Of a stretch of DNA of 39,705 bases, positions 17,995-21,821 are shown one piece after another. The translations under genes were made by a program, and so were the position numbers. Origin of the DNA: Verrucomicrobiota bacterium (GTDB lineage Bacteria; Verrucomicrobiota; Verrucomicrobiia; Limisphaerales; UBA8199); the NCBI GenBank assembly GCA_029974925.1, contig JARKQH010000082.1, positions 1 to 39,705 on the forward strand, given 5' to 3'. Below the pieces are notes generated by a model. The model had not been told where the DNA came from, did not search any database, and saw only the letters and a program-made list of their open reading frames with translations. Position 1 is the first letter of the stretch, and each line of letters starts with the position of its first letter.

Positions 17995-19839
17995 TCAGCG
18001 CGCGTTGGCGCAGAGGACGCCAAGGAGAATGGCCGAGGCGGTGCCATCCATGGTGGGCTCATTGCTCGAATAATCCTGGACGTCGTCATGGTAAACCGCG
18101 GGTCCTTGGAAGGCGGCCAGCGGGTCGGGTTCGGTGATGCTGACGCCGCGGAGGGACTTGAAAATGCGCTCGTAAACCGGCCCGTCCACCAAGCCGCCGC
18201 GAATGGGGCGGCCGGTGATTTCCATGGTCATCAGATGCGGGCTTTTGGGGGAGACGGTTCCAATTCCCGTGAACATGGTGTAGCCCCAGGGGTTGCGGCC
18301 CAGAAGCCAGTCCCGTTGCCGGTCGGCAAAATCCCGGTAGCGCTTGTCCCCCGTCATCAGTTCGTAGAGGAGGCACTGGGTGGCGAGGGCGACGGTGAGA
18401 TTGTTCGAGCACCAGATGAAGGGCACGCCCACCCGGTAAGGGTTTTTCCGCCCGGCCTCGAGGCACTTCTCGATCCCTTCCCGATAATAGCCGGCCAGGA
18501 GGGCTTTGAACCGGTGGTCCACGAGGTCGTACAGGCGGAAATGGCCGATATTCATAAACGGGTAGTATTGGTAATGTTTGGTCTGCTCCTGTCCCATCCA
18601 GCCTTCGGCCCCCGCGAGCCGGGCGTAGTGTTTGGCTTCGGCAAGATAACGTTTTTCTCGGGTGGCGCGGTAGAGCTCGGCGGCGCCCCATTCCATGTCG
18701 TCGGCCCAGGTGGTTTCTTCGTAGCGATAGGGGGCTCTGTAAGAATTGCCCTGCTGCACGCCCTCCTTGGCGCGGCCCAGTTCGTAAACCTCCCTCCCCG
18801 CCTGGAGACACCGTTCGGCGAAAGGGCGGTGGCGGGGGTCGTCCTTCCAGATTTGGTAAGCGAGGGCCATGGCGGCGGCATAGCGGCCAGCCAGGTTGGC
18901 GAGGCCTGTCGAATCGCTCTGATATTGTTGGAGACCCTGGGGTTTTCCGTCGGCAAAATAAACCACGCGATAGCTGCCCTGGCCCCAGCCGTAATCCACG
19001 ATTTCATGCTGCGGGAGGCGGCGGCCGATGTGATCGCGGTCGTCGGCCACCTGGTGGTAAAGCTGGTTGGGGGCGGGGTGGAGCTTCAACATCCACTCCA
19101 GACCCCACCGTGCTTCGTCCAGGAGGTCGGGAATTCCGTTGGTGCCGGCCTGGCCCAGGTCGTTGACCTGGTCATCGGTATGAGGCGGTCCCCGGCGCGC
19201 CCCCTTGGCCACGCGCGGTTTGGGGCCCAGTTCGTAGGCCAGCAACATCTGCGCGGTGGCGTTTCCCGAGGTTAACAGATACTTCAACAGGTCGGCGGCG
19301 TCGTGCCAGCCGCCCCGGGCATCGAGATACGTGCCGTTGGTGAGCGGCCCAAACGCCGTGCGGCCGTCGTAGGGGTGACAGACCGCCTCGAGCCAGGGAT
19401 TGTAGCCGCAGCGCTGCTGCCGCATGAACTCGAGCAGTTGCGCGGGCAGCTCAAGATAAGGGCTGGTGCCGATGTGAATCGCCAGCGAGCGGGCGTTTCC
19501 CAGCTTCAAGACGTAGCGTCCCGGCGTGCGCACGGCCGAGAAATCCAGCTCGGCGTGGTGCTCGAATAGGCCCCAGGTCGCGTCCTGGATTGGCCGGGGT
19601 TTGCCCAGATGGAAAACCAGACCTTCGTTCCGTTCGGCCACCAGGCGGAACTCCGCAGGCAGCGGCTCGTGTGAAAAGGCCAGCGCGACTTTGGCCTCAT
19701 TGACATGGTATCCGAGCTGATTGGCGCGAATGAAGATGTCGGCGGCGGCCGCCGACGCGGCAAGCAGTCCGGAGACCAAGCCAAGGCAAAACAGGCGCAA
19801 GCAAGCGCCGAGGGTTATTTGAGTTTTCACAGGTTTCAT
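17995..19839 (-). CDS. Glycoside hydrolase family 9 (endoglucanase-type), secreted
   Basis: 614 aa, exported (hydrophobic segment 8-33 ending SAAAA). An N-terminal Ig-like CelD_N domain (about 34-125; IRANQLGYHVNEAKVALAF) precedes an (alpha/alpha)6 barrel. Catalytic elements are GGWHDAADLLKY, with Asp180 and Asp183 as nucleophile-water-activating pair, and the acid Glu594 in QDYSSNEPTMDG; LGRNPWGYTMFTGIG is also typical. GH9 enzymes hydrolyse beta-1,4 or mixed-linkage glucans, and some act on chitosan-type sugars. The start ATG 19839 overlaps the stop of the upstream deacetylase gene by ATGA, so translation is coupled and the two probably act together on one polysaccharide. No carbohydrate-binding module or dockerin is seen. 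Confidence 0.93.
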   Translation of the reverse strand: MKPVKTQITLGACLRLFCLGLVSGLLAASAAAADIFIRANQLGYHVNEAKVALAFSHEPLPAEFRLVAERNEGLVFHLGKPRPIQDATWGLFEHHAELDFSAVRTPGRYVLKLGNARSLAIHIGTSPYLELPAQLLEFMRQQRCGYNPWLEAVCHPYDGRTAFGPLTNGTYLDARGGWHDAADLLKYLLTSGNATAQMLLAYELGPKPRVAKGARRGPPHTDDQVNDLGQAGTNGIPDLLDEARWGLEWMLKLHPAPNQLYHQVADDRDHIGRRLPQHEIVDYGWGQGSYRVVYFADGKPQGLQQYQSDSTGLANLAGRYAAAMALAYQIWKDDPRHRPFAERCLQAGREVYELGRAKEGVQQGNSYRAPYRYEETTWADDMEWGAAELYRATREKRYLAEAKHYARLAGAEGWMGQEQTKHYQYYPFMNIGHFRLYDLVDHRFKALLAGYYREGIEKCLEAGRKNPYRVGVPFIWCSNNLTVALATQCLLYELMTGDKRYRDFADRQRDWLLGRNPWGYTMFTGIGTVSPKSPHLMTMEITGRPIRGGLVDGPVYERIFKSLRGVSITEPDPLAAFQGPAVYHDDVQDYSSNEPTMDGTASAILLGVLCANAR

Positions 19840-21821
19840 TTGGTTTGTGCGGCCATCGAGCCGCCAGTGTGGTCCGAATCGAGCAATTCGTCCACCCGAA
19901 CGAACTCGTAACCTTTGGCTGCCAGGACGTCCAGCAGGCCGCCAAACCGCGTGTGGAACTTGTCCTGCCGGCCGGGGCCGGCCCCGAGGTGGAGCAGCAA
20001 AATGAATCCATTCAGACCGTTGGGGTCCTGGCGTTCCCGGGCGAGGATGCTGTCGTAGATGACAGACGACGGCACGAAATTGCGGTCAGCCTCGCCGGTG
20101 TAATCGGCGTTGGAGCGGGTGCCCGGAGTGAAGTTGATCAGCGTCATTCCCAGTTCCCGGGTCCAGAGGGCGATTTCCTCGTTGTAATGCTCGAACGGCG
20201 GGAGAAAGAAGCGGGCCGCCTGGGGGCCGGCCGGCAGCGGGGGGATGGGTTGGGGCGCGTCGCTTTCGGTGGTGGCAGGAGAAGGCGGCGCCCCGTAGCG
20301 GCGCGCAAACAAGCCCGCGGCTTCATCAGACTTGAAGTAGTGGAGCTGGATTTTGGCCTGGTTTTCTTGGAGGTCGGCGAGGAATTGAGGGCGGGTCACC
20401 AGGAGGTTTGGGGGATGGTCCCAGGAGCAATAGAGCAGATGTTTATCGGAATGGGGCCCGAGAAAGTGGCCGGCCTTGATGAGGCGTTGGACCAGGGCGG
20501 CGTGGTTGGAGTGGCTGAGAAAATCGCCGGTGAGAAAAAACGAAGCGCGCGCCTGATGTTTTTCGAGGGCGTCCAGGATTGCGGGGCCGCCCTCCGCATA
20601 TTCGTGGCCCGTAAAGACCAGGGCGATGCGCCGGCGGTCGGTCGGGCCGCGGAGGATGGCGCCCTGGCGGGATTCAAACGGGAGTTGGGCAATGAGGGTT
20701 TCCGCTGTATGGCGCACCGGACCTTCGGTTTCCCGGGCGGCGAAGGCGAGGCCGGGCAAGCCCTCGACGCCATAGCCTGCAAGATTGGTCAGGACCAACA
20801 GTTGGTCGGAGGGGCTCAAACGCGGGATCAGTCGGGCGAGGGAGGGGACGGCGCGGCAGCTTTCCTTGGATTGATAAATGACCGATGCCATCAGCCCCGC
20901 GCGCAGGTTGTAAAGGCAGGTCAGGCGGCGGAAGCCCGACGCCTCAGGCGGGTCGGGCGGCGAGCGGACCGCTTGTTGAAACGTGTCATCCAGAGCCGCG
21001 AGGATGGCAATGCGGGCCTGGCGTTGCGCGTTGGTCAGGCCATGAACCAGGACGGGGAGGCCGTTGGACCCCAGCAACGCCAGCGCCGCGGCAGCCTGCA
21101 TGCATTGGTTGGAGTCGGTCAGCCGCTCGCGCAGCAAAGGAACGAGCCGGGTCGGCTCGGGATCAATTCGGGCCAGGACCTCGAGGGCAAGGCCGGACGC
21201 GGGGCCGGGTTCGCGGGTGATTGCCTCGACGGCGGGGACTGCCGGGCTGGCGGATGGACCCAGCTCGGCCAGGGAGAACAGGGACAGGGTTCGCACCGAG
21301 GAGCTGGCATTGGTCAGGCCTTGAATGAAACAGTCAAGAGCCACAGGCCCCATGGCGTCCAGACAGGGGGCAACCAAGGGGCAGGTGGGCTCCTGATGAT
21401 ACAGGAGCGTCAACCGGGGCAGGGCCGGGGCCGCATTGGTGCCCAGGATGCGAAGGGCTTCGGCGGCCAGCTCGGGCCAGGGCGGCTGGCGTCGCAACGG
21501 GATTCTCACCCAATCCTGCTTGCCGTTGACCCAATCAATTCCCATCCGGAGCCAGGAATCCCCCGGGGCCCGGCTGACCAGTTGCAGCAGCCTGGGCAGC
21601 GCGTTGGTCCCCATGGCGGTGAGGGCGTTGGACACCGCGGCACGGCTCCTTTCCGGCGGCGTTTCCTCCTCGCCCGGCGGAACGGAGTCGAGCATCGCCA
21701 GCCAACGCGACAGTCGCTTGCCTTGGTAAACCGGTTCCCGCGTTTGCCACGACCAGAGGCCCCAGCCGGCCAGGATCAGCATCGCGCCGGCGAGAAGATA
21801 AGCTCGGCGGCGGTGTTTCAT
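19836..21821 (-). CDS. HEAT-repeat protein with divergent polysaccharide-deacetylase (NodB-like) domain
   Basis: 661 aa. One N-terminal membrane helix (about 8-24) anchors it. Residues about 60-390 are HEAT-like alpha repeats (ALTAMGTNALPRLLQLV, ALRILGTNAAPALPRL, LFSLAELGPSASPAVPAV). Residues about 397-655 are a NodB-like barrel: RRIALVFTGHEYAEGG stands where canonical enzymes have TFDDG, FLGPHSDKH keeps the H-S-x-x-H metal motif (His457, His461), FFLPPFEHYN replaces the RxPY motif, and FILLLHLGAG the LLH motif with His611. The catalytic Asp pair is thus replaced by Thr-Gly-His-Glu, so the chemistry may differ or His/Glu may substitute. Coupled to GH9 by a 4-nt overlap. Divergent from the operon at 21901. 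Confidence 0.85.
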   Translation of the reverse strand: MKHRRRAYLLAGAMLILAGWGLWSWQTREPVYQGKRLSRWLAMLDSVPPGEEETPPERSRAAVSNALTAMGTNALPRLLQLVSRAPGDSWLRMGIDWVNGKQDWVRIPLRRQPPWPELAAEALRILGTNAAPALPRLTLLYHQEPTCPLVAPCLDAMGPVALDCFIQGLTNASSSVRTLSLFSLAELGPSASPAVPAVEAITREPGPASGLALEVLARIDPEPTRLVPLLRERLTDSNQCMQAAAALALLGSNGLPVLVHGLTNAQRQARIAILAALDDTFQQAVRSPPDPPEASGFRRLTCLYNLRAGLMASVIYQSKESCRAVPSLARLIPRLSPSDQLLVLTNLAGYGVEGLPGLAFAARETEGPVRHTAETLIAQLPFESRQGAILRGPTDRRRIALVFTGHEYAEGGPAILDALEKHQARASFFLTGDFLSHSNHAALVQRLIKAGHFLGPHSDKHLLYCSWDHPPNLLVTRPQFLADLQENQAKIQLHYFKSDEAAGLFARRYGAPPSPATTESDAPQPIPPLPAGPQAARFFLPPFEHYNEEIALWTRELGMTLINFTPGTRSNADYTGEADRNFVPSSVIYDSILARERQDPNGLNGFILLLHLGAGPGRQDKFHTRFGGLLDVLAAKGYEFVRVDELLDSDHTGGSMAAQTK

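Follow-up and report, generated by a model that had tools for sequence, protein, structure and literature searches.

The 39,705-nucleotide contig JARKQH010000082.1 of a Verrucomicrobiota bacterium of the order Limisphaerales (assembly GCA_029974925.1; hereafter the window, taken at its full length) encodes a membrane-anchored HEAT/NodB-like protein whose gene overlaps that of a glycoside hydrolase of family 9 (GH9). We use the name TGHE for the NodB-like family to which the first protein belongs. The side-by-side or fused occurrence of TGHE and GH9 proteins across several phyla suggests a previously undescribed two-part machine for decorated polysaccharide. With moderate confidence, we explain the pair best as a self-contained, exported two-enzyme module, in which the TGHE protein would be an active acyl- or amide-modifying enzyme with the fold of carbohydrate esterase family 4 (CE4) and a rebuilt catalytic site, while the GH9 would act on the same glycan.

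The gene pair and the TGHE active site

Both open reading frames were confirmed on the minus strand, as are all features of the pair located below, and both begin with ATG. The HEAT/NodB-like gene (19836..21821; 661 residues) comes first and the GH9 gene (17995..19839; 614 residues) follows, the two sharing the 4-nucleotide ATGA overlap noted in the initial annotation (19836..19839), in which the first gene stops and the second starts. The first protein opens with a hydrophobic segment (about residues 8-25; 21747..21800), judged from the translation to be a probable membrane anchor and found on inspection to have no lipobox. Downstream of it lie a HEAT-repeat region (about residues 30-380; 20682..21734), which gives a weak HEAT_2 match (22.2 bits, under the cut-off of 27.7) and has homologous counterparts in 11 other genes from the order, and the NodB-like domain (about residues 386-650; 19872..20666), recognized by Pfam as Polysacc_deac_1 (46.4 bits against a cut-off of 23.1). 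The GH9 protein combines a signal-peptide-like N-terminus, a CelD_N domain (37-117) and the GH9 domain itself (128-604; PF00759, 257.5 bits).

A contig scan yielded 40 relatives of the window TGHE protein and a phylum search one more (L003); the window protein and 39 of these 41 (L064 and L070 being left out) were used to build a profile, A1, with which the presence of TGHE relatives was called at an E-value of 1e-30 or better. The phylum search with the single sequence returned mostly ordinary NodB proteins, with strong matches in the window's own genome and in G010 only, of 387 genomes. With A1, 35 of the 293 genomes searched for the order proved to carry relatives, as did 36 of 345 in a second set, sampled as the phylum to which an Echinicola genome belongs (hereafter the Bacteroidota survey). 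The contig scan also placed members on contigs labelled Sumerlaeota, Phycisphaerales, Ignavibacteriae and Acidobacteria, the last being probably a mislabelling; the nearly identical TGHE genes of L034 (labelled Verrucomicrobiia) and L040 (labelled Acidobacteria) likewise probably reflect a binning error. These presence calls are based on incomplete metagenome-assembled genomes, contig ends truncate some neighbourhoods (e.g., L035, L044, L056, L064, L070, L077 and L088), and the locus sets overlap, in that several of the first 41 loci recur in the surveys (e.g., L033 = L074 and L057 = L145); L107 and L109 are counted as one gene.

AlphaFold2 modeling on A1 (predicted local distance difference test, pLDDT, 85.7) confirms, at the level of a model, the distorted NodB barrel that had been read from the sequence: CE4 structures were matched at Z 20-25, the best being 4m1b (Z 25.2, 1.9 Å over 198 residues) and 4l1g (Z 24.1). 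In CE4 enzymes five motifs, MT1 to MT5, are defined, and the Arg of MT3 is in contact with the catalytic residue Asp (available part of PMC10967932). We mapped the TGHE site onto these motifs using sequence-profile alignments with 2j13, PdaA, 5o6y and NodB proteins from the same phylum. The alignments agree with the initial annotation in setting VFTGHE (402-407) against TFDD and LPPF (540-543) against RxPY, with the MT2 metal-binding motif HSDKH (457-461; 20439..20453) kept. Specifically, V402 corresponds to the Thr of TFDD, T404 to the base Asp and G405 to the second MT1 residue (D-D or D-N), so that T404-G405-H406-E407 (20601..20612) takes the place of the MT1 Asp pair; in LPPFE (540-544; 20190..20204) L540 corresponds to the MT3 Arg and E544 to the MT3 Gly. 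D573 (20103..20105) aligns with the MT4 Asp (DW) and H611 (19989..19991) with the MT5 His (LLH) of 2j13 and PdaA, the general acid in CE4. The sole other Polysacc_deac_1 protein found in this genome (G000:C486, locus L159) has a canonical TFDDG; hence, the altered motif is not a genome-wide trait.

The family alignment has 96 distinct rows; three of these are degenerate and one is a fragment (L070), and the following counts refer to the other 92. The tandem MT1 Asp is gone in all of them (404 is T/S/A and 405 is G/A/S), as is the MT3 Arg (540 is L/I/V/M); among the same-phylum NodB controls (28 loci), 12 of the 13 rows covering position 404 have Asp there, and both rows (n = 2) covering position 540 have Arg. 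H457, H461, D483, E544 and D573 are invariant (92/92), H611 and R618 are present in all 91 members covering these positions, and R391 is Arg in 90 and Lys in two. This pattern, with the two-His metal motif kept and the Asp pair and Arg lost, upholds the proposal of a distinct NodB-like type. The accompanying idea, in which the Asp positions would be filled by the TGHE His and Glu, is not supported, as both vary: position 406 is H in 70, D in 13, G in 8 and A in 1, and position 407 is E in 55. The conserved acids are instead E544 and position 410 (E410 in the window, 20592..20594; E in 67 and D in 22, hence acidic in 89), and Glu544 appears from the alignment to be the better candidate for replacing the lost Asp function. 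The Sumerlaeota members L047, L049 and L054 have FTGG where the others have FTGH. A selenocysteine reading of an in-frame TGA in three Bacteroidota members was rejected, the TGA being the C-terminal stop.

The degenerate members are three out of 95, namely L105 (HSDKF), L106 (NGDKP) and L108 (QSDSW, with H611P), each of which has lost the metal His motif. All three lack an adjacent GH9; two are in genomes without any GH9 match and the third is an extra copy. Taken together, the conservation indicates that the TGHE active site has been rebuilt rather than merely degraded. It also bears on the suggestion, made in the initial annotation, of a binding protein that presents polysaccharide to the GH9, in other words a non-catalytic, lectin-like NodB domain. 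In its favor, no non-degenerate member has the base Asp or the Arg, some proteins of CE4 fold are devoid of deacetylase activity (BA0330/BA0331; available part of PMC4505593), the pseudoenzyme BA3943 is among the top structural matches of the TGHE model, and fusion to GH9 would suit an accessory module. Nevertheless, a domain that only binds would have no need to keep H457, H461, H611, D573 and the new E544 invariant across phyla, and the few members that lose these residues have no adjacent partner; we therefore consider this alternative possible but quite unlikely.

Association with the GH9 partner

The pairing of TGHE with GH9 is not due to chance. Across the 293 genomes of the order, 29 have both a TGHE gene and a GH9 of the window type, six have TGHE only, eight have this GH9 only and 250 have neither (totals of 35 and 37; Fisher p 5.6e-27), which answers the random gene neighbourhood raised as an objection in the initial annotation. 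A control comparison was borderline: TGHE occurs in four of 72 genomes with other GH9 types only and in two of 184 without any (p 0.054). At the gene level, GH9 adjoins or is fused to TGHE in 26 of the first 41 loci, with several of the others cut by contig ends. The 36 distinct TGHE genes of the order divide into 14 with an adjacent GH9 (downstream on the same strand), seven TGHE-GH9 fusions and 15 without a GH9 in view; the 37 of the Bacteroidota survey comprise 20 GH9-TGHE fusions, five with GH9 upstream, two with GH9 downstream and 10 without GH9. Thus, natural fusions exist in both domain orders, TGHE-GH9 in Verrucomicrobiota and GH9-TGHE in Bacteroidota. Two of the former, from one Verrucomicrobial genus (L087:7579-9360 and L094:1348-3129), lie between a tetrapyrrole-methylase-family gene and an L-fucose isomerase gene.

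A FastTree phylogeny of the GH9 proteins has two clades, both of which pair with TGHE; the Verrucomicrobial clade has a local support of 1.0, and inner forks are often weak. In Echinicola, Phaeodactylibacter and L116 the GH9 groups with the Verrucomicrobial clade and the TGHE falls among those of Bacteroidota. Given these differing placements, the link seems to have survived exchange of the partner.

An alignment of 68 GH9 sequences (that of the window, those linked to TGHE and 11 taken from stretches that have no TGHE) shows D180 and D183 (DAAD; 19291..19302) to be invariant in 68/68 and E594 (18058..18060) in 67/67; we take these to be the catalytic Asp/Asp/Glu positions, E594 being that of the catalytic acid. 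DDRDH, WCSNN and NEPTMDG are near-invariant motifs of the partner GH9s. The PHHR of 3x17, 5u2o and BoGH9A (6dht) is replaced by PHLM in the window protein (H535-L536-M537 for the HHR of cellulases; 18229..18237), and its relatives are either HLM-type or HSA-type, the latter in the Bacteroidota fusions. As PHHR forms part of the cellulase substrate-binding site, though it is not a defining trait of the whole family, a decorated or non-cellulosic glycan is a plausible substrate. In an AlphaFold2 model of a fused homologue (pLDDT 83.7, predicted TM-score 0.78), the best match of the GH9 part is 3x17 (Z 35.4), ahead of two glucosaminidases, 5dgq and 6gdt (Z 29); the window GH9 matches these two at 4e-6 and 4e-7 versus 3.5e-31 for endoglucanases. 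An exo-glucosaminidase-type GH9 is therefore disfavored by both sequence and structure.

The HEAT repeats are indeed unusual for deacetylases, as first remarked, but prove incidental to the pair. They precede the TGHE domain in 12 of the 36 genes of the order (the window, L081, L084, L085, L092, L093, L096, L098 and L104-L107) and in none of 36 TGHE loci of the Bacteroidota survey. HEAT_2 matches are common elsewhere in the window's genome (G000), in 21 stretches. A role for HEAT as the functional core was rejected on the strength of the 12/36 count, and the repeats are, as judged from their distribution, a lineage-specific add-on. A simple scan found a hydrophobic N-terminal segment in most TGHE and fused proteins, from which we infer that they are exported.

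Weighing the proposed activity

In the explanation we favor, the TGHE protein has kept the metal-motif residues His457 and His461, the MT4-equivalent Asp573 and the acid His611, has lost the base Asp, its MT1 neighbor and the MT3 Arg, and has gained Glu544, which probably does proton transfer as a moved base. It would remove or rearrange an acyl or amide substituent on a β-1,4-linked glycan, and the partner GH9, with its catalytic Asp/Asp/Glu intact and the usual PHHR absent, would cleave that glycan. In the window, the TGHE enzyme would hang from the membrane via its transmembrane segment and a HEAT spacer.

Several observations weigh against this account. TGHE without an adjacent GH9 is not rare (the 15 of 36 and 10 of 37 counted above, some cut by contig ends), and the six genomes of the order with TGHE only and the eight with window-type GH9 only break the pairing in either direction. 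Two Sumerlaeota genomes searched (L047 and L054, of three with loci) gave no GH9 match at 1e-10. Furthermore, no recurrent third gene hints at the substrate: among the 93 nearest neighbours of 49 loci on the Bacteroidota side, no Pfam family is matched by more than four proteins, a scan that left out the 88 second-nearest. Finally, in the muramic-lactam-forming SwsB the loss of the same three positions accompanies an absence of deacetylase activity (available part of PMC12444981). As for the unpaired genes of the order, eight have a window-type GH9 elsewhere in their genome, one belongs to a genome whose other TGHE gene is paired, and the genomes of the remaining six have no GH9 of that type; among the 10 genomes of the unpaired Bacteroidota-survey genes, five have a related GH9 at an identity of at least 41%. 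Members with an intact TGHE site in genomes without a window-type GH9 (L086, L098, L101 and L104) indicate that the partner is not strictly required.

The flanking genes led us to reject a polysaccharide-utilization locus or an exopolysaccharide-synthesis operon as the setting, as no family exceeds four of the 93 proteins. SusC/SusD-type genes do stand beside the pair in Echinicola (L057), and SusD_RagB is found in two of the 93; at that locus (L057:822-11689) they are followed by the pair and then by a GH3/beta-lactamase fusion gene, for which the best models are PBP4B and a NagZ-type beta-N-acetylhexosaminidase, and L058 is alike by the layout of its reading frames. Elsewhere, a TGHE domain is fused to a Beta-lactamase2 serine-hydrolase domain (L131:3771-5681), and in another genome a separate Beta-lactamase2 gene lies directly upstream of a fused GH9-TGHE gene (L113:1830-3143), which possibly hints at a peptidoglycan- or ester-related role.

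As to the chemistry, SwsB has neither the base Asp, the MT3 Arg nor the Thr; it makes muramic lactam, for which its acid His is essential and a metal is not needed, and restoring Thr, Asp and Arg together is what brings deacetylation back (available part of PMC12444981). This speaks against TGHE being an ordinary CE4 deacetylase that depends on metal and whose MT1 has drifted, using for instance His/Asp406 as a third ligand and acting on N-acetyl or O-acetyl groups. Such an enzyme would fit the retained MT2, MT4 Asp and MT5 His, the H or D at position 406 in 83 of 92 members and the precedent of GH-CE4 fusions active on xylan (GH11-CE4; available part of PMC6626019). With the base Asp, the second MT1 Asp and the Arg gone throughout and a new invariant Glu next door, we regard it as unlikely.

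Acyl chemistry of a non-hydrolytic, SwsB-like kind, for instance the closure of an amide or ester within the molecule that marks the glycan for GH9, is suggested by the three positions altered in both proteins (TGHE has V402 in place of Thr, T404 in place of the base Asp and L540 in place of Arg) and by the sporulation families PdaB, PdaA and YlxY among the best NCBIfam models, all far below cut-off; moreover, PdaA/SwsB products are recognized by glycosidases (available part of PMC12444981). That profile similarity is shared with ordinary CE4 enzymes, however, and the metal motif is invariant in TGHE even though SwsB dispenses with metal, leaving this option very improbable in our view. Bacillus-type spores are not known from any TGHE host group. 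A broader version, in which TGHE, as an enzyme of NodB fold that occurs outside spore formers, would form or exchange an amide or ester on polysaccharide without hydrolysis and the GH9 would be specific for the modified glycan, is a long shot; if true, the pair would make up a mark-and-cut module of a new type, distributed across Verrucomicrobiota and Bacteroidota. Since TGHE lacks the three residues lost in SwsB but adds Glu544 and keeps the metal motif, catalysis with a moved base is favored.

Relationship to known systems

A family so far matched only as polysaccharide deacetylase is now linked with one particular subfamily of GH9, to which it is fused in either domain order. It offers a test case for CE4-fold chemistry without an Asp base, and labels such as plain deacetylase or cellulase should be avoided when these genes are annotated; the fused proteins are ready-made enzymes for assay.

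TGHE shares with CE4 enzymes (e.g., Bc1960, PdaA and BA0150) the fold (Z 23-25), HSxxH, the MT4-type Asp, the MT5 His and the MT3 proline, but differs in lacking the MT1 Asp pair and MT3 Arg, in its new invariant or near-invariant Glu544, Arg391 and Arg618, and in its GH9 partner. Like the muramic-δ-lactam cyclase SwsB, also of CE4 fold, it has lost the Thr, base Asp and MT3 Arg and kept the acid His; unlike SwsB, it has the new Glu544, a GH9 partner, and a HEAT/transmembrane or signal-peptide N-terminus, and it occurs outside spore formers. The partner resembles GH9 enzymes with a CelD_N immunoglobulin-like domain (3x17, BoGH9A, CelD and CbhA) in fold (Z 31-35 for the fused homologue) and in the catalytic Asp/Asp/Glu, and is set apart by HLM for PHHR (HSA-type in the Bacteroidota fusions) and by its own motifs DDRDH, WCSNN and NEPTMDG. 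The exopolysaccharide proteins PgaB and PelA also combine a NodB-type deacetylase and a glycoside hydrolase, of other GH families, in one protein; in contrast to these systems, no synthase genes recur among the nearest flanking proteins scanned beside the TGHE-GH9 pair. The GH11-CE4 xylanase-esterases likewise unite a glycosidase with a NodB-fold domain, but have a canonical CE4 and a xylan substrate, whereas the TGHE/GH9 fusions have GH9 and a non-canonical site. No description of a TGHE-GH9 pair or fusion was found in the literature searched, including the available parts of PMC4928363, PMC6626019, PMC5103373 and PMC6115787. Proteins that join a GH to a deacetylase, GH11-CE4 fusions among them, are already on record; what is new is a separate family of NodB fold accompanied by a GH9 subfamily of its own.

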